Below, in pieces: positions 5,972 through 29,585 of a DNA stretch of 33,072 nucleotides. Source of the stretch: Gammaproteobacteria bacterium (lineage in GTDB: Bacteria > Pseudomonadota > Gammaproteobacteria > Steroidobacterales > Steroidobacteraceae); the NCBI GenBank assembly GCA_019247195.1, contig JAFAPI010000161.1:1-33072 (forward strand), in the 5' to 3' direction. A program made the position numbers and the translations under genes. The notes beneath the pieces were generated by a model that searched no databases, was not told where the DNA came from, and saw only the letters and a list, made by a program, of their open reading frames with translations. How positions within the stretch are numbered: position 1 is the first letter of the stretch; each line of letters opens with the position of its first letter.

Positions 5972-7153
5972 CTAGCGCTTGAGCTGCGCGGCGATGCGAC
6001 GGTAGGCGTCGCGAAAAGGGATCCCCTCGCTCGCCGCCAGGCGGTTGGCCGCCTCGGCGGCATGGATCCCCGCATCGAGCCGCACCCGCTCCGGGTGGAA
6101 GGTGAGGGCGCCGATCGCCCGCGGCGCGAGGGCGAGGGTCGCCTGCGCCAGGTCGATGCCGCGGAACAGCGGCGCCTTCAGCAGCTGCAGGTCGCGGTGG
6201 TAGCCGGAGGTGAGCTTCGCGGTGAGCGCGAGCGCCTCGAGCAGGCACGCCTGCGCGACCGCGCTCTGCCCGCGCAGCAGCTCGTACACGTCGGGGTTGC
6301 GCTTCTGCGGCATGATCGAGGAGCCGGTGGTGAAGGCGGCGGCGAGGCTCACGAACCCGAACTCCTGCGTCGCGAACAGCACCACGTCCGCGGCCCAGCG
6401 CCCGAGGTCCTGGATCAAGAGCGCGACCTCGAACAGCAGCTGCGCTTCGGCCTTGCCGCGCGAGAGCTGCACGGCCGTCACCGGCTCGTGCACCGCCGCG
6501 AAGCCGAGCTCCCGGCGCGTGGCCTCGCGGTCGAGGTCGAGGCCGGGGGTGCCGTAGCCGGCCGCGGAGCCGAGCGGGTTCTTGTCCAGGCGCCGGCCGA
6601 CCGCCTCGAGGCCGGCCGCATCATCGTCGAGCTCGGCGGCGAAGCCCCGCGCCCACAACGCCACCGAGCTCGGCATCGCCTGCTGCAGGTGGGTGTAGCC
6701 GGGCAGGGCGACGCTGCCCTGGCGGGCGGCGAGGGCCTCGAGCGCCGCGGCGCAGTCGCGGGCGCCCTGGGCGAGCCTCACGAGCACGTCCTTGAGGTAC
6801 AGGCGCAGCGCGGCGAGCACCTGGTCGTTGCGCGAGCGGCCCAGGTGCACGCGCGCCCCGGCCGCGCCGATGCGCGCGGTGAGCCGCTGCTCGAGCGCGG
6901 TGTGCACGTCCTCCTCCTCGGGGCCGATCTGCCACGCGCCGCGCGCGTGCTCCGCGCCGAGCGCGCCGAGGCCGGCCTCGATGGCCGCGAGGTCGGCGGC
7001 GCCGAGCAGCCGCTGGGCGTGCAGCATGCGCGCGTGCGCGATCGAGGCCCGCACGTCGTAGGGCACGAGGCGCGCATCGAGCGCCGCATCGGCCGCCGCG
7101 GTGAAGCGCAGCACCGCCGCATCGCCCGGCTCGCCCGCGTTCCACAGCGTCAT
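5972..7153 (-). CDS. argH: Argininosuccinate lyase, short form lacking the usual C-terminal tail
   Basis: Splits argininosuccinate into arginine and fumarate, the last step of arginine synthesis. The fumarase/aspartase-superfamily signature GSSIMPQKRNPD is at residues 277-288, with the catalytic-serine loop intact; VHLGRSRNDQ (102-111) and GYTHLQQAMP (152-161) are also typical. The protein is 393 residues, whereas E. coli ArgH is 457. The reading stops directly after GIPFRDAYRRIAAQLKR, where other lyases carry some 45-65 more residues. No continuation is visible in the other frames downstream, so this looks like a natural short form rather than a frameshift. It is the last arginine gene of the operon; its ATG overlaps the argB stop by 4 bases. 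Confidence 0.92.
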   Translation of the reverse strand: MTLWNAGEPGDAAVLRFTAAADAALDARLVPYDVRASIAHARMLHAQRLLGAADLAAIEAGLGALGAEHARGAWQIGPEEEDVHTALEQRLTARIGAAGARVHLGRSRNDQVLAALRLYLKDVLVRLAQGARDCAAALEALAARQGSVALPGYTHLQQAMPSSVALWARGFAAELDDDAAGLEAVGRRLDKNPLGSAAGYGTPGLDLDREATRRELGFAAVHEPVTAVQLSRGKAEAQLLFEVALLIQDLGRWAADVVLFATQEFGFVSLAAAFTTGSSIMPQKRNPDVYELLRGQSAVAQACLLEALALTAKLTSGYHRDLQLLKAPLFRGIDLAQATLALAPRAIGALTFHPERVRLDAGIHAAEAANRLAASEGIPFRDAYRRIAAQLKR

Positions 7154-8076
7154 GCGCCCGCGGCCTCCGCCGGCGGCAGCGCGTGCGCGTCGGCGACGAT
7201 GAGGGTGCCGGTGCCCTCGTTGGTGAACACCTCGCCGAGGATCCCCTCGGGCGCACGGTGCGAGACCACGTGCACGCGCCGCACCCCGCCGCGCAGGGCC
7301 GCCTCGATGGCGGTGGCCTTCACCAGCATGCCGTCCGCGAGGCAGCCCTCCGCGCGCAGCCGCGCCAGGCCGGCGAGGTCGGTATAGGAGATGAGTGAGC
7401 GCGGGTCGGCGCGGTCCTGCAGGATGCCGGGGGCGCCGGTGCAGACGATGAGCTTCTCGGCATCGAGCGCCGCCCCGAGGGCAGCCGCGACCGTGTCGGC
7501 GTTGATGTTGAGCAGCGTCCCCTCCGCGTCCGCGGACAGCGGGCTGACCACCGGCATCAGCCCGGCCTCGAGCAGCGTGCGCAGCGGCGCGGGCTCGACG
7601 GCGTCGATGTCGCCCACCAGCCCGAAGTCGACGCGCTCGCCGCCGACCGTCTGCGGCGGGCGGCGATGCGCCCGCACCAGCCCGGCGGCGACCCCGCTCA
7701 CGCCCACCGCATCGATGTTGAGGGCGCGGCAGATGGCGAGCAGGCGCGTGTTGATGAGGCCGTTGAGCACCATGGTGCTGACCTCAATGGCGCGCTCGTC
7801 GGTGACGCGCCGTCCCTCGACCCGCCGGGTCGGCACGCCGAGCGCGCGGCCGAGCTCGTCCTGCTGCGGCCCGCCGCCGTGCACCAGCACGACCCGGACG
7901 CCGAAATAATGCAGGATCGCGAGCTGCTCGAGCAGGGGGCGCGGGGCGCTGTCCTCGGCGAACAGGCCGCCGCCGGCCTTCACCACGAAGGTCCGCCCCT
8001 TGTAGAGGCGGATGTACGGCGCGGCGCCCTTGAGGGCGCGGATGGCGAGAGTGGGATCCAGGCGCGGGCTGATCAT
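7150..8076 (-). CDS. argB: N-acetyl- (or N-acyl-) glutamate kinase
   Basis: An amino-acid-kinase-fold enzyme of 308 residues that phosphorylates the gamma-carboxylate of N-acylglutamate. Visible motifs are FVVKAGGG with the catalytic Lys33, VVLVHGGGPQQDEL (62-75) for the substrate/phosphate loop, RRVTDE (89-94), the NINADTVAAALGAAL nucleotide-binding segment, and DGMLVKATAIEAALRGG. The N-terminal helix before the first strand makes it a 'long' NAGK. Unlike the Xanthomonas bifunctional enzyme, there is no GNAT acetyltransferase domain at the C-terminus, so it cannot make N-acetylglutamate itself. The ATG at 8076 is preceded by a strong GGAGAG ribosome-binding site; the larger open frame upstream overlaps argF' and is a shadow. 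It overlaps argH by 4 bases. Confidence 0.9.
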   Translation of the reverse strand: MISPRLDPTLAIRALKGAAPYIRLYKGRTFVVKAGGGLFAEDSAPRPLLEQLAILHYFGVRVVLVHGGGPQQDELGRALGVPTRRVEGRRVTDERAIEVSTMVLNGLINTRLLAICRALNIDAVGVSGVAAGLVRAHRRPPQTVGGERVDFGLVGDIDAVEPAPLRTLLEAGLMPVVSPLSADAEGTLLNINADTVAAALGAALDAEKLIVCTGAPGILQDRADPRSLISYTDLAGLARLRAEGCLADGMLVKATAIEAALRGGVRRVHVVSHRAPEGILGEVFTNEGTGTLIVADAHALPPAEAAGA

Positions 8077-8086
8077 GTCGCTCTCC

Positions 8087-9082
8087 TCAGTGCCGCAGCA
8101 GGCGATGCAGGACCGCCATCTGCGCCGGCAGGCGGTTGTGGGCCTCGCGCTGCACCACGCTGCGCGGCCCATCGAGCACGGCGGCGTCGATCGCGACGTT
8201 GCGGCGCACCGGGAGGCAGTGCATGACCCGGCACTGCGGCGCCGCGGCGAACCACTCCTCGCGCACGCACCACTCCCGCAAGGGGGCGCGCAACGCGGCG
8301 TCCGCGGCGGCATCCCCGTAGGCCGCCGTGGCGCCCCACTCCTTGACGTAGAGGACGTGCGCACCGGCGAGCGCCTCGTGCCGGTCGGCGGTCTCGCGCA
8401 CCGCGCCGCCGCTGCGCGCGGCGGCCTGGCGCGCGCGCTGCAGGAGCGCGGGCGGCAGCGCGAAGCCCTCCGGGCGCAGCACCACCACCTCCATGCCGCG
8501 CAGCGCCGCCATGTGCAGTGCCGCCGCCGGGACGGCGAGCGGCAGGGCGCGCGGGTGGTACGCCCAGCCGAGCACGAAGCGTCCGCCGCGCGGCACCCCG
8601 AGGTCATCGAGGGTCTTCCAGTCCGCGAGCGCCTGGCAGGGATGGTTCATCGCCGACTCGAGGTTGATGAGGGGCTTGTCGATGAGCGCGGCCAGGCGGG
8701 TGAAGTCGCGCTCGGCGAGGTCGGCGGCGAGATCCTGGCCGGCGGCGAAGAGGCGCACCCCGAGCGCGTCGCAGTAGCCGGCGAGCACCGGCAGACCCTC
8801 GCGCACGTGCTCCGCCGCCGCCCCATCCATCACCACCCCGTCACGCCACTCGAGCTGCCAGCTCCCCTGTCCCGGGGTGATGACGAACGAGGTGCCGCCC
8901 AGGCGCGCCATCGCCACCTGGCAGGAGGCGAGGGTGCGCAGCGACGGATTGAAGAAGAGCAGGCCGAGCACCCGCCCGGCGAGCGCGTGCGGCTCGGGCT
9001 GGCGCTCCAGGTGGCGCGCCAGCTCGAGGAGCGAGAGCACCTCCTCGCGCTCGAGCTCACCGAGATCGACGAAGCGCTTCAT
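8087..9082 (-). CDS. argF': N-acylornithine carbamoyltransferase (ArgF'; N-succinylornithine-like by key residue)
   Basis: A 331-residue transcarbamylase transferring the carbamoyl group to an N-acylated ornithine. The carbamoyl-phosphate site is seen in FFNPSLRT (43-50) and NHPCQALAD, and the C-terminal HCLPVRRNV is diagnostic of the N-acetyl/N-succinyl-ornithine group rather than ordinary ornithine transcarbamylase. In this group Glu92 of the Xanthomonas N-acetylornithine enzyme versus Pro90 of the Bacteroides N-succinylornithine enzyme sets the substrate; replacing Glu92 with Pro, Ser, Val or Ala is reported to switch specificity. Here the aligned loop reads VMDGAAAEH with Ala90. The ALPLAVP segment also matches the succinyl enzyme's PLPQAVP better than PLNTAVA. 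N-succinylornithine specificity is therefore inferred, not shown. Only 4 bases separate it from argC. Confidence 0.88.
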   Translation of the reverse strand: MKRFVDLGELEREEVLSLLELARHLERQPEPHALAGRVLGLLFFNPSLRTLASCQVAMARLGGTSFVITPGQGSWQLEWRDGVVMDGAAAEHVREGLPVLAGYCDALGVRLFAAGQDLAADLAERDFTRLAALIDKPLINLESAMNHPCQALADWKTLDDLGVPRGGRFVLGWAYHPRALPLAVPAAALHMAALRGMEVVVLRPEGFALPPALLQRARQAAARSGGAVRETADRHEALAGAHVLYVKEWGATAAYGDAAADAALRAPLREWCVREEWFAAAPQCRVMHCLPVRRNVAIDAAVLDGPRSVVQREAHNRLPAQMAVLHRLLRH

Positions 9083-9086
9083 GGGC

Positions 9087-10148
9087 TCAGGTCCACCCGG
9101 CCGCCGGGGCCGTGAGACCGCAGGTCTCGGGCAGGCCGAACAGCCGGTTCATCCACTGCAGCGCGCCGCCGGCGGCGCCCTTGGTCAGGTTGTCGATCGC
9201 GCACAGCACCGCCACGGTGCCCGCGCCGGTGCGCGCGGCGAGGTGCGCGTAGTTGCTCGCGGCGACGTCCTTGACCCGCGGCGGCTGCGACAGCACCCGC
9301 ACGAACGGCGCGCCCCGGTAGAACTCCGCGAGGTGCGCAGCCAGCGCCTCCTCGCCGAGGGGACGGCGCAGCCGCGCCTGCAGCGTGAGGTGAATGCCGC
9401 GCGCGTAGGGCCCGGAGTGCGGCACGAACTGGCACTCGACGCTCACCCCGGTCAGCGCCTGCAGCAGCGCCACGACCTCGGGCACGTGGCGGTGGGCGAG
9501 GGGGTTGTAGGCGTAGAGGTCGCCGTGGCGCAGCGGATGGTGCGTACCCTCGGCGGGGCGCCGGCCCGAGCCGGTGCTGCCGGTGACGCCACTGATGAAG
9601 AGCTGCGGCTCGATCAGCTCGCGGGCGATGAGCGGTGCGGCGGCGAGCAGCATGGCCGTCGCGAAGCAGCCGGGATGCGCGACGTGCGGCGCGCGCGGCC
9701 GCGCCAGGTGCTCGGGCAGCGCGCAGCAGAACTGAGCTAGCCGCGCGGGCGCGCCGTGCGGCTGGCCGTACACCCGCTCGTACGCGGCCGCGGAGCCGTA
9801 GCGGTAGTCGGCGGAGAGGTCGACCGCGCGGATCTCGCGCCCGGCCCGCTCGGCGGCGAGCAGCAGTCGGTCGATGAGCGCGGCGGACACGCCGTGCGGC
9901 GCCGCCCCGAACAGCGCGGCGCGCGGCGCCGCGGCGAGCGCGGCGCACGCCTCCGCCTCGGTGCTGAAGCGCGTCGCGGGGTAGGCACAGGCGAGGTGCG
10001 GGAAGGCGGTCGCGACCGGCTCGCCGGGTGCCCCGTCCGAGAGCACCGCCGCGAGGCGGAAGTGCGGGTGCGCGGCGAGCAGCCGCAGCAGCTCGCCGGC
10101 CACGTAGCCGGTGCCGCCGACCACGACCGCGGGCACGGTATCGCTCAC
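9087..10148 (-). CDS. argC: N-acetyl- (N-acyl-) gamma-glutamyl-phosphate reductase
   Basis: NADPH-dependent reduction of N-acyl-glutamyl phosphate to the semialdehyde, after ArgB. The 353-residue protein starts with the Rossmann motif VVVGGTGYVAGELLRLL (8-24). It carries the active-site cysteine Cys161 in HVAHPGCFATAM, then GVTGSTGSGRRP and FVPHSGPYARGIHLT typical of ArgC; DNLTKGAAGGALQWMN lies near the C-terminus. The start is a GTG at 10148 whose GTGA overlaps the stop of the upstream P-loop gene. The open frame extends far upstream through that gene, but the extension is antisense-like and without family similarity. Same operon and strand as the other arginine genes. Confidence 0.92.
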   Translation of the reverse strand: MSDTVPAVVVGGTGYVAGELLRLLAAHPHFRLAAVLSDGAPGEPVATAFPHLACAYPATRFSTEAEACAALAAAPRAALFGAAPHGVSAALIDRLLLAAERAGREIRAVDLSADYRYGSAAAYERVYGQPHGAPARLAQFCCALPEHLARPRAPHVAHPGCFATAMLLAAAPLIARELIEPQLFISGVTGSTGSGRRPAEGTHHPLRHGDLYAYNPLAHRHVPEVVALLQALTGVSVECQFVPHSGPYARGIHLTLQARLRRPLGEEALAAHLAEFYRGAPFVRVLSQPPRVKDVAASNYAHLAARTGAGTVAVLCAIDNLTKGAAGGALQWMNRLFGLPETCGLTAPAAGWT

Positions 10149-11209
10149 GCGACCGCCGCGGCCTGCAGCTGCAGTGCCTCGATGACCCGGTCGCCGAGCG
10201 CGGCGCCGCTGCTGAGGGCATTGAAGGCAGGCACGCCGAGCTGCTCGCGGATGATCTCCACCCCGACCGCGTTGTCGGTGGCCGGCCCGGTGACCGCGCA
10301 CGGCTCGACGTGGAACCGCTCGCGCAGCAGCCGCACGCCGCCCCAGGCGGCCACCGGATCGTTGGCGGAGAGGATCACCCCGCTCAGGGCGGCGCGGATG
10401 TCCGCGCACTCGAGGATGGCGTCGACGCCGTAGGTGCCGAGCAGGCCATCGCCGAGCTCGAACACCACCACGTCCGGCCGCCCCGCGGCGAGCTCGCTCA
10501 GCATGGTGCGGGTGAGCGCCGGCCCGTTGGCGCGGGTCGTGGTGACGACGCCCAGGTCGGTGAAGATGGCGCTGCGGCGCGCCCCGGCATCCTCCATCGC
10601 CAGGATGTCGCGCCGCAGCGAGACGCCGGTCGCCTTGAAGGCATCCACCGTCAGGCCCCGATGGCGCATGCGCGCGATCACGGCGCAGGCGGCGGCGGTC
10701 TTGCCCGCCTCCATGCAGGTACCGGCGAGCGCCACCACCGGCACGCCGCGCGTGTCGAGGCGGGCGGCGGCATCGAGCGGCGCGTGCCCGACGCGGGCGG
10801 GCACTCCGATGCGCTCGCCGAGGTAGGGGAAGTGCAGCGCCACGCCGAGCACGCGGCAGTCGAACGGCTTGCCCTTCTCCGGGTTGATCGAGTCGCACAC
10901 CCCGAGCACCCCGCCCATGTTCAGCATCTGGATGACATCGCCCGGGGCGAGCCGGGGCGGCACGTGGCCCGAGTAGCCGAACAGCGCCCTGCGGTGCCCG
11001 AGCGCGCCGGCGATCACGTCGCCCTTGCCGAGCTTGGCCATGCGGCCGCTGGTGAGCTCGAGGGTGTTGTAGGTGGATTTGTTGTTGAGCACCTCGGCCA
11101 CGACCACCACCCCCTCCTCGGCGGGGATGTCGGTGGCGATGCGCACCTCGTGCGACAGCGCGCACGCCTGCGTCACCGAGGCGAGCTTGTCGACCACCAC
11201 GCTGCGCAC
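10145..11209 (-). CDS. Unrecognised P-loop (SIMIBI-type) protein inside the arginine operon
   Basis: A 354-residue protein I cannot assign. The C-terminal half is a P-loop domain with Walker A GTCMEAGKT (163-171), FKATG (191-195) as a likely switch region, and a strand RPDVVVFELGDG (244-255) like a Walker B. This layout recalls dethiobiotin synthetase-like and DUF1611/DgcN-like ATPases, of which DgcN is a D-glutamate N-acetyltransferase. The typical GQTG and EGQGSL motifs of DUF1611 are not evident. The N-terminal part (about 1-135: LNNKSTYNTLELTSGRM, FGYSGHVP, QMLNMGGVLGVCDS) looks beta-rich and is of unknown type. Start: GTG at 11209, with GAGGG six bases upstream and two bases after the argG stop; the 3' end overlaps argC. 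The placement implies a role in arginine synthesis, perhaps glutamate N-acylation. That is a hypothesis. Confidence 0.75.
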   Translation of the reverse strand: MRSVVVDKLASVTQACALSHEVRIATDIPAEEGVVVVAEVLNNKSTYNTLELTSGRMAKLGKGDVIAGALGHRRALFGYSGHVPPRLAPGDVIQMLNMGGVLGVCDSINPEKGKPFDCRVLGVALHFPYLGERIGVPARVGHAPLDAAARLDTRGVPVVALAGTCMEAGKTAAACAVIARMRHRGLTVDAFKATGVSLRRDILAMEDAGARRSAIFTDLGVVTTTRANGPALTRTMLSELAAGRPDVVVFELGDGLLGTYGVDAILECADIRAALSGVILSANDPVAAWGGVRLLRERFHVEPCAVTGPATDNAVGVEIIREQLGVPAFNALSSGAALGDRVIEALQLQAAAVA

Positions 11210-11211
11210 GC

Positions 11212-12462
11212 TCAGCCCTCCGCGCCGGGGGCGGCGTCGCCGCCGGCACGCGCGTGGAACATCCCCGGCAGCGCGAGGATGCGCGAGAAGCCGAGGGCAT
11301 CGGCCGCCGACCATTCCCCGGCCGCCTCGCCGTACACCCCGCGCGAGGCCGCCATCAGCGAGTACGGCGAGCTCACCCCCTCGACGAACACCGCCCCGGT
11401 GTGCAGCAGCAGCCGCACCTCGCCGCTCACGCGCTGCTGCGAGGACAGCAGCAGCGCCTCGATGTCACGGCACACCGGGTCGAGCAGCTGGCCTTCGTGC
11501 ACCAGGTCGCCGTAGGGCTGGGCGAGGAGCTCCTTGGTGCGCTGCTGGCGCGCGGTGAGCACCAGCTTCTCCAGCTCGCGGTGCGCGCTCAGCAGCACCT
11601 CGGCCGCCGGAGCCTCGAAGGCGACCCGCCCCTTGGTGCCGAGGATGGTGTCCCCGAGGTGGATGCCGCGGCCGATGCCGAACGGCGCCGCGCGCGCCTC
11701 GAGCGCCTCGATGAGCTCCACCGGCGAGCGCGCCACCCCGTCGAGGGCGACGGGGCGCCCGGCGGCGAAGCTGAGCACCAGGCGCTCCTCGGGCCGCGCG
11801 GCGTCGAAGGCGCCGCGGGTGAGGAGCCAGGCCTCCTCCGGCAGACTGCCGGCGGAGGTGAGGGTCTCGCGCCCGCCGATGGTGACGCCCCACAGGCCGC
11901 GGTTGATCGAGTAGCGCGCGCCGCTCGGCGGCACCGGCAGGCCGCGCGCGCGCAGGTACTCGAGCTCCTGCTCGCGCCGCAGCCCCTCGTCGCGCACCGG
12001 CGCGAGCACGGTCAGGTCCGGCGCCAGGGTGCGCAGCGCCACCTCGAAGCGCACCTGGTCGTTGCCGGCGGCGGTGCAGCCGTGCGCCACGAGATCACTC
12101 CCCAGGGTGCGCGCCATGCGCGCGATGGTCTGCGCCTGCATCACGCGCTCGGCGCCGACGCACAGCGGGTATAGCCCGCCGCGGCGGACGTTGCCCATGA
12201 TGAGAAAGCGCAGTACCTGCTCGAAGTAGGCGGCGCGCGCGTCGACCTGGTGGTGGGCGAGGGCGCCGAGGGCCAGGGCGCGCTCGCGCAGGGTGCGCGC
12301 GGCGGCCGCATCGATGCCGCCCGTGTCCACCGTCACCGTGATGACCGGCCGCCGCTCGCGCTCGGTGAGCCACGGCACCAGGAACGAGGTGTCGAGCCCG
12401 CCGGAATAGGCGAGCACGATGGGCGCGACGCCCGCGGCGGGTGCCGGCGGGGCCACGCTCAC
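11212..12462 (-). CDS. argG: Argininosuccinate synthase
   Basis: Condenses citrulline and aspartate with ATP to argininosuccinate. The 416-residue protein has the N-type ATP pyrophosphatase loop SGGLDTS at 20-26, then VTVDTGG. MARTLGSDLVAHGCTAAGNDQVRFE is the family's nucleotide/citrulline segment. GARYSINRGLWGVTIGG and GIHLGDTILGTKGRVAFEAPA are typical of a full-length synthase. The gene order argR-argG-...-argC is like that of Bacteroidetes arginine clusters, not E. coli. The ATG at 12462 overlaps the argR stop (ATGA). A Pro/Ala-rich N-terminal extension of about 13 residues precedes the catalytic strand. Confidence 0.93.
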   Translation of the reverse strand: MSVAPPAPAAGVAPIVLAYSGGLDTSFLVPWLTERERRPVITVTVDTGGIDAAAARTLRERALALGALAHHQVDARAAYFEQVLRFLIMGNVRRGGLYPLCVGAERVMQAQTIARMARTLGSDLVAHGCTAAGNDQVRFEVALRTLAPDLTVLAPVRDEGLRREQELEYLRARGLPVPPSGARYSINRGLWGVTIGGRETLTSAGSLPEEAWLLTRGAFDAARPEERLVLSFAAGRPVALDGVARSPVELIEALEARAAPFGIGRGIHLGDTILGTKGRVAFEAPAAEVLLSAHRELEKLVLTARQQRTKELLAQPYGDLVHEGQLLDPVCRDIEALLLSSQQRVSGEVRLLLHTGAVFVEGVSSPYSLMAASRGVYGEAAGEWSAADALGFSRILALPGMFHARAGGDAAPGAEG

Positions 12463-12911
12463 ACCCCGAACAGGGTGCGCAGCCGGCCGAGCAGCTCGCC
12501 CTGCTCGCGCGCGCCGGCCGTGGCGATGAAGATCGTGTCATCGCCGGAGAGGGTGCCGGCCACCTCCGGCCACTGCGCGCGGTCGATCGCCACCGCGACG
12601 CTCTGCGCCGCGCCGATGGTGGTGCGCAGCACGGTGAGCGAGGGGCCGGCGCTGCGCAGGCCGCGCACGAACTGCGCCAGCGAGCCGAAGTCGCCGTTGG
12701 CGCGGCTCACCTCCTCGCCCGGCAGCACGTAGCGGCCGCTCGCCTTGAGCACGCCGAGATCGCGCAGGTCGCGGCTGACCGAGGACTGCGTGACCGCATG
12801 GCCGGCGCGCTTCAGCAGCCGCACCAGCTCGGCCTGGCGGCCGACGCGCCCGCCGCGCAGCAGGCGCACGATCGCGGCGCGGCGCTCGAGCTGCTGCGCA
12901 TCGCTCAGCAC
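12459..12911 (-). CDS. argR: Arginine repressor
   Basis: A 150-residue ArgR/AhrC-family regulator. The winged-helix DNA-binding half contains TQSSVSRDLRDLGVLK (41-56), the recognition-helix signature. The C-terminal arginine-binding, hexamerising half has GAAQSVAVAIDRAQWPEVAGTLSGDDTIFIAT with the GT-x-x-GDDT arginine-binding motif at 119-126. With arginine bound it should repress the operon it heads. The predicted start is a GTG at 12911, with AAGG ten bases upstream. Two palindromic ArgR-box-like sites and a sigma-70-like promoter lie 16-61 bases upstream, so autoregulation is very likely. Its stop overlaps the argG start, so the regulator is co-translated with the pathway it controls. Confidence 0.93.
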   Translation of the reverse strand: MLSDAQQLERRAAIVRLLRGGRVGRQAELVRLLKRAGHAVTQSSVSRDLRDLGVLKASGRYVLPGEEVSRANGDFGSLAQFVRGLRSAGPSLTVLRTTIGAAQSVAVAIDRAQWPEVAGTLSGDDTIFIATAGAREQGELLGRLRTLFGV

Positions 12912-25008: not shown

Positions 25009-25920
25009 TCAGTAGATGGCGATGTCGCGGCGGCCGTTCGAGTCGCGCGCGCCACGGAACATCCCCTCGGTGCTGAAATCCATGACGATGCGCCCGGCGT
25101 GGTCGAGCGCGATCAGCCCGCCGTCGCCGCCGAGCGCGGGCAGCACCTGGTGCAGCAGCTCCGCCACCGCCGCCTCGAGCGTCAGGCCGCGGTGCTCTAC
25201 CGCGGCGCAGACGTGGTGCGCCGCCACGGCACGGATGAAGTACTCGCCGTGGCCGGTGGCCGAGACCGCGCAGACGCCATTCTTCGCGTAGGTGCCCGCG
25301 CCGATGATCGGCGAGTCGCCGACGCGCCCGGGGCGCTTGTTGGTCATGCCGCCGGTCGAGGTGGCGGCGGCGAGATTACCGGCCGCATCGCGCGCCACCG
25401 CTCCGACCGTGCCCTGCGCGGCCGGCGGCACGAGGTCCGACACGCGCGTACCGCGCTGCTCGGCGTCGAGCTGCTCGAGCCGCTCGGCGGTGCGGAAGTA
25501 CTGGTTGGGCACGAGCGTGAGGCCCTGCTCGAGCGCGAATTCCTCCGCGCCGGCACCCACCAGCAGCACGTGGCGCGACTTCTCCATCACGTGCCGGGCC
25601 AGCTCGATCGGGTTCTTCACGTGCCGTAGCGAGGCGACCGCGCCGGCGCGCATCTGCCGCCCGTCCATGATCGCCGCGTCGAGCTCCGCCGCGCCGTCGC
25701 GCGTGAGCGCCGCGCCGTGGCCCGCATTGAAGCTGGCATCGTCCTCGAGCAGCCGTACCGCGGCGCACACCGCATCCAGCGCGCTGCCGCCTGCCTCGAG
25801 CAGCGCGTAACCCGCATCGAGCGCGCGCTCGAGACCCGCGCGGTAGCGTGCCTCGCGCTCCGCCGCGAGGCTCGCACGCGGCACGGCGCCCGCTCCGCCG
25901 TGGATGGCGATGGCGTGCAT
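25009..25920 (-). CDS. iaaA: Isoaspartyl peptidase / plant-type L-asparaginase
   Basis: A 303-residue N-terminal-nucleophile hydrolase. The N-terminus HAIAIHGGAGAVPR is diagnostic. The autocleavage site is in AAQGTVGAVARD with Thr171 as the nucleophile of the mature beta-subunit. GNLAAATSTGGMTNKRPGRVGDSPIIGAGTYA and SATGHGEYFIR follow, as in E. coli IaaA. It removes isoaspartyl residues from peptides and hydrolyses asparagine. No export signal is seen. The ATG at 25920 puts the family start at residue 2; an extended in-frame version adds only an arginine-rich shadow. It diverges from the pyruvate carboxylase locus across about 180 bases and is convergent with the GlxA-type gene. Confidence 0.9.
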   Translation of the reverse strand: MHAIAIHGGAGAVPRASLAAEREARYRAGLERALDAGYALLEAGGSALDAVCAAVRLLEDDASFNAGHGAALTRDGAAELDAAIMDGRQMRAGAVASLRHVKNPIELARHVMEKSRHVLLVGAGAEEFALEQGLTLVPNQYFRTAERLEQLDAEQRGTRVSDLVPPAAQGTVGAVARDAAGNLAAATSTGGMTNKRPGRVGDSPIIGAGTYAKNGVCAVSATGHGEYFIRAVAAHHVCAAVEHRGLTLEAAVAELLHQVLPALGGDGGLIALDHAGRIVMDFSTEGMFRGARDSNGRRDIAIY

Positions 25921-26102
25921 CAGGGCGTCTCGCGCGCGGCGCTCGTCTGCGGCGCGAGCGGCGGCTCGGCGCCGCACGCGACGGCCCACGGAGACGTTAT
26001 CGCGAGCCAGCTGCGGCGCGACATGTCACCCTCCAAAGCGGCTATGATCGCCACGCCGTTTCCGCGCGGGCTCCCGCGCCGGCGCGGCCCCCCGACACGA
26101 CG

Positions 26103-26726
26103 GTGCATCTTAAAGTGAATCCCGCCCACCCGCAGCGGATCCGCAGCCTGCTGGTCGCCAACCGCGGCGAGATCGCCATCCGGGTGCTGCGCGCGGCGAG
26201 CGAGCTCGGGCTGCGCACCGTCGCGGTGTACTCGCACGAGGACCGCTTCTCGCTGCACCGGACCAAGGCCGACGAGGCTTACCCGGTCGGCGCGGGGCGC
26301 GGGCCGATCGAGGCCTACCTCGACGTGCCGGACCTGCTGCGTATCGCCCACGCGGCGCAGGTCGATGCGGTGCACCCCGGCTACGGCTTCCTCGCCGAGC
26401 ACCCGGAGTTCGCCGCCGCCTGCGAGGCGGCCGGGCTGATCTTCGTCGGCCCGAGCCCGCAGACCCTGCGCGTGCTGGGCAACAAGGTGAGCGCGCGCGC
26501 GCTCGCGGCGGGAGCCGGCGTGGCGGTGATGCCGGCGACCGGACCCCTGCCGGCGGACCCGGCGGCCGTCGCCCGCCTCGCGGCCGCCATCGGCTACCCG
26601 CTGATGCTCAAGGCGAGCTGGGGCGGGGGCGGGCGCGGCATGCGTCGCATCGAGGACGCGGCGCAGCTCGAGGAGCTGCTGCCGCTCGCGCGGCGCGAGG
26701 CGCGCGCCGCCTTCGGCAACGACTAG
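26103..26726 (+). pseudogene. pyc: Pyruvate carboxylase, N-terminal fragment ended by an in-frame TAG
   Basis: This is the first 207 codons of a single-chain pyruvate carboxylase. It contains the biotin-carboxylase N-domain (SLLVANRGEIAIRVLRAA, AVHPGYGFLAEHPEFA) and the start of the ATP-grasp domain (GNKVSARALA, LMLKASWGGGGRGMRRI). The reading stops at TAG 26724-26726 in AAFGND-stop-VYLEKLV, where relatives have GNDEVYLEK; GAG to TAG is one base. The coding frame simply continues after the stop, so this is a nonsense interruption and not a domain boundary. The start is uncertain: GTG at 26103 or 26115 give plausible lengths, with no good ribosome-binding site. A TATGAT at 26043 may be part of the promoter. 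Alone, this fragment cannot be active. Confidence 0.8.
26724..26726 (+). other. Premature amber codon in pyc
   Basis: TAG replaces the GAG expected for glutamate in the conserved GNDEVYLEK stretch, four codons before the glutamate equivalent to the ATP-grasp residue of E. coli AccC. The next codon is GTG, which could in principle restart translation, but no ribosome-binding site precedes it. Neighbouring genes (argH, the P-II gene, qor, ilvH) use TAG as their true stop, so the codon is not reassigned in this genome. Confidence 0.9.
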
Positions 26727-29585
26727 GTGTACCTCGAGAAGCTGGTGGGCCGGGCGCGGCACGTGGAAGTGCAGATCCTCGGCGATGCGCACGGCAACCT
26801 CGTGCACCTTTTCGAGCGCGACTGCACGGTGCAGCGCCGCAACCAGAAGGTGGTCGAGCGCGCCCCCGCGCTCTTTCTCAGCGAGGCGCAGCGCGCCGAG
26901 CTGTGCGCGGCGGCGCTGGCGATCGGCCGCGCCGCCGAGTACCGCAACGCCGGCACCGTCGAGTTCCTGCAGGACGCCGACAGCGGCCGCTGCTACTTCA
27001 TCGAGGTGAATCCGCGCATCCAGGTCGAGCACACGGTCACCGAGTGCGCGACCGGCATCGACCTGGTGAAGGCGCAGCTGCGCATCGCGGGCGGGGCGCG
27101 CCTCGGCAGCGCCGCCAGCGGCGTGCCGGAGCAGGCGCAGATCCGCCTCCACGCCCACGCCCTGCAGTGCCGCATCACCACCGAGGACCCGGAAGACAAC
27201 TTCGTCCCCGACTACGGTCGCATCAGCGCCTACCGCAGCCCGGCAGGCTTCGGCATCCGGCTCGACGCCGGCACCGCCTACACCGGCGCGATCATCACCC
27301 GCTCCTACGACTCGCTGCTGGTGAAGGTGACGGCCTGGGCGCCGGAGGCGGAGGAGACCATCGCGCGCATGCACCGGGCGCTCGCCGAGTTCCGCATCCG
27401 CGGCGTCATGACCAACCTGCGTTTCCTCGACCAGCTGATCACGCACCCACGCTTCGCCGCCGCCGACTACACCACGCGCTTCATCGAGGAGACGCCCGAG
27501 TTGCTGCGCGCGCCGCGCAAGCGCGACCGCGCCACGCGCATCCTCACCTTCATCGCCGACACCATCGTCAACGGCAACGCCGAGCTGCGCGGCCGGCCGC
27601 GGCCGGCGCCGACCGAGGTGCGCCTGCCGCCCGGGGCGCTGGCGGCGCCCGCGCCCGGTACGCGCCAGCGCCTCGAGGCGCTCGGGCCGGAGGGCTTCGC
27701 GCGCTGGATGCTCGCCGAGGAGCGGGTGCTGGTCACCGACACGACGCTGCGCGATGCGCACCAGTCCCTGCTCGCCACGCGCCTGCGCACCCGCGACATG
27801 CTGGCGATCGCCCCCTACTACGCGGCGCGGCTGCCGCAGCTGTTCTCGCTCGAGTGCTGGGGCGGAGCCACCTTCGACGTGGCGCTGCGCTACCTGCGCG
27901 AGGATCCCTGGCAGCGCCTCGTGGCGCTGCGCGCGGCGGTGCCGAACCTGCTGCTGCAGATGCTGCTGCGCTCGGCCAACGCGGTGGGCTACACCAACTA
28001 CCCGGACAACGTCGTGCGCTTCTTCGTGGCGCGCGCCGCGGCCAACGGCATCGACCTGTTCCGGATCTTCGACTCGCTCAACTGGGTGGAGAACATGCGC
28101 GTCGCGATCGAGGCGGTGCGCGAGTCGGGCAAGCTCGCCGAGGGGGCGCTCTGCTACACGGGGAACCTGAGCGATCCGCGCGAGCGCAAGTACACCCTCG
28201 ACTACTACGTGCGCCTGGGGCGCGAGCTCAAGGCCGCCGGTGTGCACCTGCTCGGCATCAAGGACATGGCGGGCCTGTGCCGACCGCGCGCCGCCTATGA
28301 GCTGGTGCGCGCGCTCAAGCAGGAGACGGGCCTGCCGGTGCACTTTCACACCCATGACACCTCCGGGATCGGCGCGGCGAGCGTGCTGGCGGCGGTCGCC
28401 GCCGGGGCGGACGCGGTCGATGCCGCGATGGATGCCCTGAGCGGGCTCACCTCGCAACCGAACCTCGGCTCGCTCATCGAGGCGCTGCGCTTCTCGCCGC
28501 GCGACACGCAGCTCGACCCTGACGCGGTGCGCGCCCTCTCCGCCTACTGGGAGCAGGTGCGGCGCCAGTACGCGGCCTTCGAGAGCGAGATGCGCGCCGG
28601 GGCCTCCGAGGTCTACGTCCATGGCATGCCGGGCGGTCAGTACACCAACCTGCGCGAGCAGGCGCGTGCCCTCGGCATCGAGGCCGCGCGCTGGCCGGAG
28701 GTCGCGGCCGCCTACGCGACGGTGAACGAGCTGCTGGGCGACCTCATCAAGGTGACGCCGACCTCGAAGATGGTCGGCGATCTGGCCCTGCTCATGGTGA
28801 GCGCCGGCCTGACGCGCGAGCAGCTGCTCGACCCGCACACCCCGGTGGCATTCCCGGCTTCGGTGGTGCAGTTCTTCCGCGGCGATCTCGGCCAGCCGCA
28901 CGGCGGCTTCCCGCAGGCGCTGGCCCGCAAGGTGCTGCAGGGCGAGGAGCCGAGCCGTGCGCGTCCGGGGGCGCGGCTCGCGCCGGTCGACCTCGCCGCC
29001 GAGCGCACCCGCATCCAGGCCGAGCTGCCGCGCCCGGTGAGCGATGAGGATCTCGCCTCGCACCTCATGTACCCGCGCGTCTGGCAGAGCTACGCGCGCG
29101 AGCGCGCCCGCCACGGCGACCCGAGCATCCTGCCGACGCCGGTGTTCTTCTACGGCATGGAGCCCGGCCAGGAGATCGCGGTCGATCTCGAGCGCGGCAA
29201 GACCCTCATCGTGCGCTACCTCGCCAGCAGCGAGCCGCACGAGGACGGCACGCGCACGGTGTTCTTCGAGCTGAACGGACAGCCGCGCTCGGTGCGCACC
29301 GCGGACCGCAGCATCGCGCCGCGGGCGGCACCGCCGCGTGCGGCCACCGATAACCCCGCGCACGTCGGCGCGCCGATGCCGGGGGTGGTGGCGAGCGTGG
29401 CCGTCCAGGCCGGCGCCGCGGTGGCGCCCGGCACGCTGCTCGTCACGCTCGAGGCGATGAAGATGGAGACCGCGGTGCGCGCCGAGCGCGCCGGCACGGT
29501 CGAGGAGGTGCTGGTGCGGGCCGGGCAGACGGTGGAGGCGCGGGACCTGCTGCTGCGACTCGCTACGCCCGCGCCGCCTCCCTGA
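26727..29585 (+). CDS. pyc: Pyruvate carboxylase, remainder after the TAG (rest of biotin carboxylase, carboxyltransferase, biotin carrier)
   Basis: 952 codons continuing pyruvate carboxylase in the same frame. They hold the second half of the biotin carboxylase (VYLEKLVGRARHVEVQILGD, CTVQRRNQKVVE, IEVNPRIQVEHTVTE), then the carboxyltransferase (TTLRDAHQS from 338, FDSLNWVENM, Lys512 in GIKDMAGL, SGLTSQPN). At the end is the biotin carrier domain with EAMKMET and the biotinylated Lys912. With the upstream fragment the total is about 1160 residues, the normal length, and no other defect is visible. The enzyme would carboxylate pyruvate to oxaloacetate. Whether it is made depends on amber readthrough, reinitiation at the adjacent GTG, or the TAG being a sequencing or assembly error. 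The 3' end overlaps the convergent flavoprotein gene by 23 bases. Confidence 0.85.
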   Translation: MYLEKLVGRARHVEVQILGDAHGNLVHLFERDCTVQRRNQKVVERAPALFLSEAQRAELCAAALAIGRAAEYRNAGTVEFLQDADSGRCYFIEVNPRIQVEHTVTECATGIDLVKAQLRIAGGARLGSAASGVPEQAQIRLHAHALQCRITTEDPEDNFVPDYGRISAYRSPAGFGIRLDAGTAYTGAIITRSYDSLLVKVTAWAPEAEETIARMHRALAEFRIRGVMTNLRFLDQLITHPRFAAADYTTRFIEETPELLRAPRKRDRATRILTFIADTIVNGNAELRGRPRPAPTEVRLPPGALAAPAPGTRQRLEALGPEGFARWMLAEERVLVTDTTLRDAHQSLLATRLRTRDMLAIAPYYAARLPQLFSLECWGGATFDVALRYLREDPWQRLVALRAAVPNLLLQMLLRSANAVGYTNYPDNVVRFFVARAAANGIDLFRIFDSLNWVENMRVAIEAVRESGKLAEGALCYTGNLSDPRERKYTLDYYVRLGRELKAAGVHLLGIKDMAGLCRPRAAYELVRALKQETGLPVHFHTHDTSGIGAASVLAAVAAGADAVDAAMDALSGLTSQPNLGSLIEALRFSPRDTQLDPDAVRALSAYWEQVRRQYAAFESEMRAGASEVYVHGMPGGQYTNLREQARALGIEAARWPEVAAAYATVNELLGDLIKVTPTSKMVGDLALLMVSAGLTREQLLDPHTPVAFPASVVQFFRGDLGQPHGGFPQALARKVLQGEEPSRARPGARLAPVDLAAERTRIQAELPRPVSDEDLASHLMYPRVWQSYARERARHGDPSILPTPVFFYGMEPGQEIAVDLERGKTLIVRYLASSEPHEDGTRTVFFELNGQPRSVRTADRSIAPRAAPPRAATDNPAHVGAPMPGVVASVAVQAGAAVAPGTLLVTLEAMKMETAVRAERAGTVEEVLVRAGQTVEARDLLLRLATPAPPP

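Follow-up and report, generated by a model that had tools for sequence, protein, structure and literature searches.

A conserved P-loop gene in an arginine operon of the Steroidobacterales is a candidate N-acyl-L-glutamate synthase

The window analysed here, a stretch of 33,072 nucleotides from a gammaproteobacterium of the order Steroidobacterales (GenBank assembly GCA_019247195.1, contig JAFAPI010000161.1), carries an arginine operon in which a gene for a P-loop protein is embedded. Arginine routes that proceed via N-acylated glutamate need a first-step synthase, and where it seems to be missing, the genomes of self-sufficient bacteria can be mistaken for those of auxotrophs (PMC7311316). 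With moderate confidence, and from sequence comparison, we propose that the P-loop protein takes this step as an N-acyl-L-glutamate synthase of the SIMIBI fold, with succinyl as its preferred group, in place of a GNAT synthase. The idea of an N-acylglutamate-forming enzyme had been raised in an original prediction made from the DNA alone; it is supported by the operon, by the missing synthase and by the mutual exclusion with NAGS/K, and the activity itself is what we infer from them.

A conserved P-loop gene within the arginine operon

The gene runs from a GTG start codon (11209-11207) to a TGA stop codon (10147-10145) in the translated frame. The original prediction gave its coordinates and neighbours correctly, with argG ending at 11212 (a 2-base gap) and the GTG of argC at 10148 (a 4-base overlap); the strand, which it did not give, is minus.

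10145 to 11209, minus strand: candidate N-acyl-L-glutamate synthase (putative new P-loop family), 354 amino acids, GTG start
10697 to 10723, minus strand: Walker A motif GTCMEAGKT, residues 163-171 of the P-loop protein, from the translation

A scan of GTDB contigs yields 376 relatives of the P-loop protein, and the best 80 of these 376 were examined. A start codon lies at the same residue in all 80 loci (ATG in 76, GTG in 4), and the Walker A motif is found at residues 163-171 as predicted, invariant in 81 aligned rows save for Thr164, which is kept in at least 90%. In these 80 loci, which were selected by the P-loop protein itself, it has a higher mean identity to its counterpart in the window (81.9%) than any of the other six operon genes (ArgG 77.3%, the rest 64.0-74.1%). 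In 20 further orthologue loci, chosen from seven families of the order, the P-loop protein and ArgG are level (65.7% and 65.4%), and the P-loop protein is more conserved than ArgC and ArgF' in 20 of 20 loci, than ArgB and ArgR in 19 of 19, and than ArgH in 16 of 19. The gene is thus confirmed as real and not a chance reading frame, and it is conserved as well as argG.

The operon reads argR-argG-P-loop gene-argC-argF'-argB-argH, adjacent genes overlapping or lying apart by no more than about 10 bases. The other members are:

12459 to 12911, minus strand: argR, arginine repressor, first gene of the operon (PF01316, PF02863; best NCBIfam model TIGR01529, below cut-off)
11212 to 12462, minus strand: argG, argininosuccinate synthase (PF00764, PF20979; TIGR00032 above cut-off)
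9087 to 10148, minus strand: argC, N-acyl-gamma-glutamyl-phosphate reductase (TIGR01850 above cut-off)
8087 to 9082, minus strand: argF', knotted transcarbamylase with succinylornithine-type residues (NF003384 above cut-off)
7150 to 8076, minus strand: argB, N-acylglutamate kinase without an acetyltransferase domain (by frame and length, about 308 amino acids)
5972 to 7153, minus strand: argH, argininosuccinate lyase (TIGR00838 above cut-off)

Homologues had been expected to keep to arginine clusters, and for orthologues this is the case: the gene adjoins argG or argC in all 100 orthologue loci examined, and both in 98, while distant paralogues lie outside such clusters. When 31 diverse loci are clustered by BLAST, argR, argG, the P-loop gene, argC, an argD-like gene, argF', argB and argH are found on the same strand in 29-31 of them, and any other same-strand neighbour in at most 16. 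The argD-like aminotransferase of the relatives' operons is assigned by a model match under the cut-off, and an ArgD match is present in 93 of the 100 orthologue loci. The window itself lacks this gene at the argC/argF' junction (9083-9086), where it usually lies in relatives.

The first step in the genome and across the order

The operon had been predicted to hold no N-acylglutamate synthase and no acyltransferase fused to ArgB, and both statements stand: ArgB has a kinase match alone, and the ArgA model TIGR01890 covers just this kinase part (positions 3-281). A canonical synthase elsewhere in the genome, which would have accounted for the first step, was likewise looked for in the assembly (92% complete). 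The sole TIGR01890 match up to E 10 is ArgB itself; ArgJ is not found in the genome, nor is there a PF01960 match in the P-loop protein; and the NAGS/K-type NAT domain (PF04768) is not found either. The genome has 15 GNAT matches, 14 of which were scanned against NCBIfam (a fragment, C48, was left out, and C129:25-204 was scanned as a 60-amino-acid piece). None of these 14 reaches a synthase model, the best scores being 25.8 of 280 bits for CG3035 and 28.3 of 180 bits for PRK07922.

The same picture extends to a sample of 147 genomes of the order. An orthologue (E < 1e-60) is present in 109 of them, five as fragments, and a distant paralogue alone in six more. The NAT domain of NAGS/K occurs in 21 genomes, none of which has the orthologue, and 17 genomes have neither. 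ArgA above the cut-off and ArgJ are each found in 0 of the 147. With no other synthase recognised and no overlap with NAGS/K, the P-loop gene may well fill the missing first step. Of the 17 genomes with neither, G497 and G528 carry an ArgF' of the window type and G439 one of the acetyl type; no ArgF' match better than E 2e-6 was found in the other 14. Two metagenome-assembled genome records (L073, L076) titled Klebsiella pneumoniae carry this order's operon with a P-loop gene 76-78% identical, and their names look wrong.

Outside the order the orthologue is rare. A sample of 398 genomes of the phylum gives four matches, namely the window's own genome, an orthologue in G268, a paralogue in G244, and G271 (E 5e-4). 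G268, labelled as another class, has an orthologue 69.5% identical to the window protein in the arrangement argR-gene-argC-argB, with no ArgG, ArgF' or ArgH match within 20 kb of it; its best transcarbamylase match is unlinked and looks by eye like an ordinary ornithine transcarbamylase, going by its motifs. Since this locus keeps the repressor and the acyl-glutamate steps together, a role in the first step fits it, and a citrulline-linked role fits poorly.

A citrulline-linked role would belong to a transacylase: in an ArgJ-like cycle replacing both argA and argE, it would return the acyl group of N-acylcitrulline (or N-acylornithine) to glutamate. No deacylase is found in the P-loop operon, and this keeps in play a transacylase whose reaction would free the acyl group as well. 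An ArgE-like gene occurs in 2 of the 100 orthologue loci, several kilobases away (many contigs are short), as against argE within the operon in 17 of 20 NAGS/K loci (20 of the 21 NAT genomes were taken in). This negative covers the operon loci, M20 genes elsewhere in the window's genome not having been searched, so that a separate deacylase could exist. A cyclic transacylase would presumably also need no P-loop, and we regard this reading as quite improbable.

A further route to N-acetylglutamate might start from D-glutamate. The window's genome contains a true DUF1611 gene (L243:1376-3258, contig C240) beside a gene judged by eye to belong to the enolase superfamily, and the two resemble the DgcN-DgcA pair for D-glutamate. 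DgcN is an acetyl-CoA-dependent D-glutamate N-acetyltransferase. If this pair supplied the pathway, the operon gene would perform another step. Such intermediates would be acetyl rather than succinyl, however, and inspection by eye of the 3.3-kb contig of the DUF1611 gene shows no arg gene; we give this route hardly any weight.

ArgF' residues and the acyl group

Which acyl group the pathway uses can be read, in part, from the transcarbamylase. Acetylornithine transcarbamylase is recognised by Glu92, Asn185 and Lys302 (Xanthomonas campestris numbering), the succinylornithine enzyme by A/S/P/V/Q, P and V/I/E at these positions (PMC4581275); GapMind ascribes a preference for the succinyl substrate to enzymes with S, P, A or V at the first of them (PMC7311316). 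The X. campestris positions were mapped on the PDB chains of 3kzc and of mutants, and the numbering is borne out by the sequences of the crystallised mutants. Counts exclude three copies of the window locus (L001, L090, L091), and 10 of the 100 orthologue loci and 3 of the 20 NAT loci stop short of ArgF'.

The window ArgF' has Ala at 92, Pro at 185 and Ala at 302. Beside the P-loop gene, Ala92 and Pro185 are each present in 90 of 90 ArgF' sequences, and position 302 is Ala in 74, Val in 15 and missing in one, Lys never being seen. Beside NAT, Glu92 and Asn185 are each present in 17 of 17, with Lys (14) or Gln (3) at 302. This split suggests that the intermediates of the P-loop operon are likely N-succinyl compounds and, hence, that N-succinylglutamate is likely the first product; the acyl group is therefore judged likely to be succinyl rather than acetyl. 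Two genomes, G439 and G460, also carry a second knotted transcarbamylase (L210, L211). It is 47-50% identical to the window ArgF' and carries Asp and Glu at sites 176/178, and its residue 302 is Ser.

Several observations weigh against the proposal of a succinyl-preferring synthase. The exclusion of NAGS/K may reflect few independent events: the two operon types differ throughout, in gene order and in their ArgF' (33-40% identical across types), so that whole operons may have been exchanged, and one family, f94, holds both types (G534 with NAT, many others with the orthologue). In addition, several orthologue genomes, among the matches listed, have a short GNAT whose match to the TIGR01890 acetyltransferase part reaches about 27-36 of 203 bits. 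Taken whole, the window ArgF' is closer to the acetyl enzyme of X. campestris, with 200 bits, than to the succinyl enzyme of Bacteroides fragilis, with 167 bits, and NCBIfam model NF003384 names it an N-acetylornithine carbamoyltransferase. According to GapMind, the same acetyl misnaming occurs in Swiss-Prot for a Bacteroides succinyl enzyme (PMC7311316).

The transcarbamylase scores, together with the placing of both argC and argF' above the cut-offs of N-acetyl models, favour a first enzyme that uses acetyl, or both groups: a P-loop N-acetylglutamate synthase acting like DgcN on L-glutamate. Acetyl-CoA is the donor in the DgcN reaction, and the genomic context would support this enzyme just as it does the succinyl-preferring one. 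The Ala92 and Pro185 found in every ArgF' of the P-loop type, however, point to N-succinylornithine (PMC4581275, PMC7311316), and in G268 the apparently ordinary ornithine transcarbamylase leaves the acyl group undecided; an acetyl-specific or dual enzyme is, in our view, rather unlikely.

The GNATs bear on a different alternative: N-acylglutamate would be made by a GNAT elsewhere that escaped recognition, and the P-loop protein would serve the arginine enzymes as a regulator, a chaperone or a scaffold NTPase. Regulators and metallochaperones are known among SIMIBI proteins; the sequence profiles closest to the P-loop protein include MobB, and its closest folds include HypB. The number of GNATs in the window's genome, and the weak likeness of some relatives' GNATs to the ArgA acetyltransferase, would also suit this alternative. 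Against it, the GNATs scanned reach no N-acetylglutamate synthase model, the orthologue and NAT never overlap in the 147 genomes, and in G268 the gene is accompanied by argR, argC and argB alone. We consider an accessory role of this kind unlikely. One GNAT gene, in G426 (L153:1475-1993), lies about 300 bases after argH and scores 30.9 bits with the ArgA acetyltransferase part, below every cut-off; it was rejected as a general synthase because a homologue is present in 0 of the other 119 operon loci.

Fold, family ties and a candidate reaction

No Pfam or NCBIfam model, GNAT included, matches the P-loop protein above its cut-off. The C-terminal half belongs to the SIMIBI class of P-loop domains: the Walker A motif, G-x4-GKT, follows the first beta strand of a P-loop alpha/beta fold, and the nearest fold is CTP synthase, followed by DUF1611 and dethiobiotin synthetase. 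The N-terminal domain is not placed, both AlphaFold2 models (built with 24 and 81 close relatives) being poor there; EF-G domain II gives a weak match (E 0.02) in one relative only. A sequence search of the PDB returns no credible relative, with two matches at E 1.2.

The kinship with DUF1611 and DgcN suggested by the original prediction is seen at the level of fold, in the C-terminal half, and only weakly at the level of sequence. PF07755 scores 16.1 bits over 41 residues of the P-loop protein (cut-off 25) and 20.1, 15.6 and 13.9 bits on three of four relatives, the fourth having no match. In hhalign the profile of the P-loop protein gives 79% for MobB, 28% for BioD, 6% for DUF1611, 2% for PyrG and 0.09% for reversed DUF1611, pairwise comparisons with single Escherichia coli sequences as controls, which say only that no SIMIBI family stands out. 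(L180, a paralogue by eye, lacks the row-selection motif and was left out of the DUF1611 set.) Membership of DUF1611 was thus rejected on the Pfam score and the hhalign value. With the paralogue profile, the value for DUF1611 is 54%, and PF07755 recognises a paralogue in G550 above its cut-off (28.0 bits), so that a distant kinship is likely. Candidate active-site residues are Lys192, Asp201, those of the DAGA motif, Asp218 and Glu251, which are fully or almost fully conserved in three families (23 rows).

In the proposed reaction, the P-loop protein would join L-glutamate and a succinyl group to give N-succinylglutamate. The donor could be succinyl-CoA, by analogy with DgcN, or succinate and ATP via succinyl phosphate, an option raised because several of the nearest folds are ATP-driven formers of C-N bonds. 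The N-acyl product would then pass through ArgB, ArgC and an ArgD and be carbamoylated by the succinylornithine-type ArgF', and would be deacylated by an enzyme that is not among the genes recognised here. The more specific version, an ATP-dependent ligase that couples L-glutamate to succinate activated by ATP at the P-loop, is suggested by analogy and is possible, though doubtful.

Comparison with known systems

Within the order, a functional counterpart would be NAGS/K of the Xanthomonas type, the presumed source of N-acylglutamate where the sister operon type is present. It differs in having an acetyltransferase domain in the ArgB frame, an acetylornithine-type ArgF' and, in most loci, argE in the operon. 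The ArgA2 protein of Bacteroidetes (BT3761), a probable N-succinylglutamate synthase, shares the same inferred step, in a route whose intermediates are succinylated, and a succinyl-type ArgF' (PMC7311316, PMC9026213); ArgA2 is a GNAT, whereas the window protein is a P-loop protein without a GNAT match.

Among P-loop proteins, the paralogue family (for example L095:9133-10158) is homologous to the window protein over 308 columns (hhalign 99.96%) and shares the motifs GR, G-R-A, Walker A, K-G, D, DAGA and F-D-G. The two are about 30% identical, however, and the paralogue has no ArgR, ArgG, ArgC, ArgF', ArgB or ArgH match nearby and adjoins an M20 gene in 17 of 17 loci. The paralogue operon (L095:9133-11967, L127-L146) contains the M20 deacylase-like gene in these 17 loci and a flavin-reductase-like gene in 16. 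A third, distant P-loop family (L137, L141, L143, L144) has an ABC transporter, an alpha/beta hydrolase and a porin as neighbours, judged by eye. DUF1611/DgcN-like proteins (PF07755; 2obn, 2g0t) are distinct in that the window protein falls under their cut-off and its genome has a separate true member. The amidoligase domain of CTP synthase and dethiobiotin synthetase resemble it in sequence in the P-loop region alone, and they have other substrates and another context.

The described synthases include ArgA, ArgJ, ArgO, S-NAGS and the Corynebacterium type (PMC3827942), NAGS/K (PMC4490483), and ArgA2 and the hydrolase-like ArgA3 (PMC9026213); apart from ArgJ and ArgA3, those named are GNATs. 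No P-loop protein is so described in the excerpts of these three papers, and no link of such a protein to arginine synthesis appears among the literature matches listed (subscription papers and preprints lie outside this scope). If the proposal is correct, the P-loop synthase would be a new and unrelated solution to a known step, and its first-step role would account for the operon in those 109 of the sampled genomes that have an orthologue. The ArgF' residues also predict that the succinyl pathway, described for Bacteroidetes, occurs in an order of Gammaproteobacteria (class per record titles). Should the protein prove to be an ATP-dependent ligase, it would provide a third chemical entry to arginine synthesis, the other two being acyl-CoA transfer and the recycling by ArgJ, and would give the succinyl arginine pathway in Gammaproteobacteria its own first enzyme.

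Elsewhere in the window, a gene at 25848-29585 on the plus strand looks by eye like a pyruvate carboxylase and has an in-frame stop codon at about 26724-26726, which may reflect a broken gene or a sequence error.
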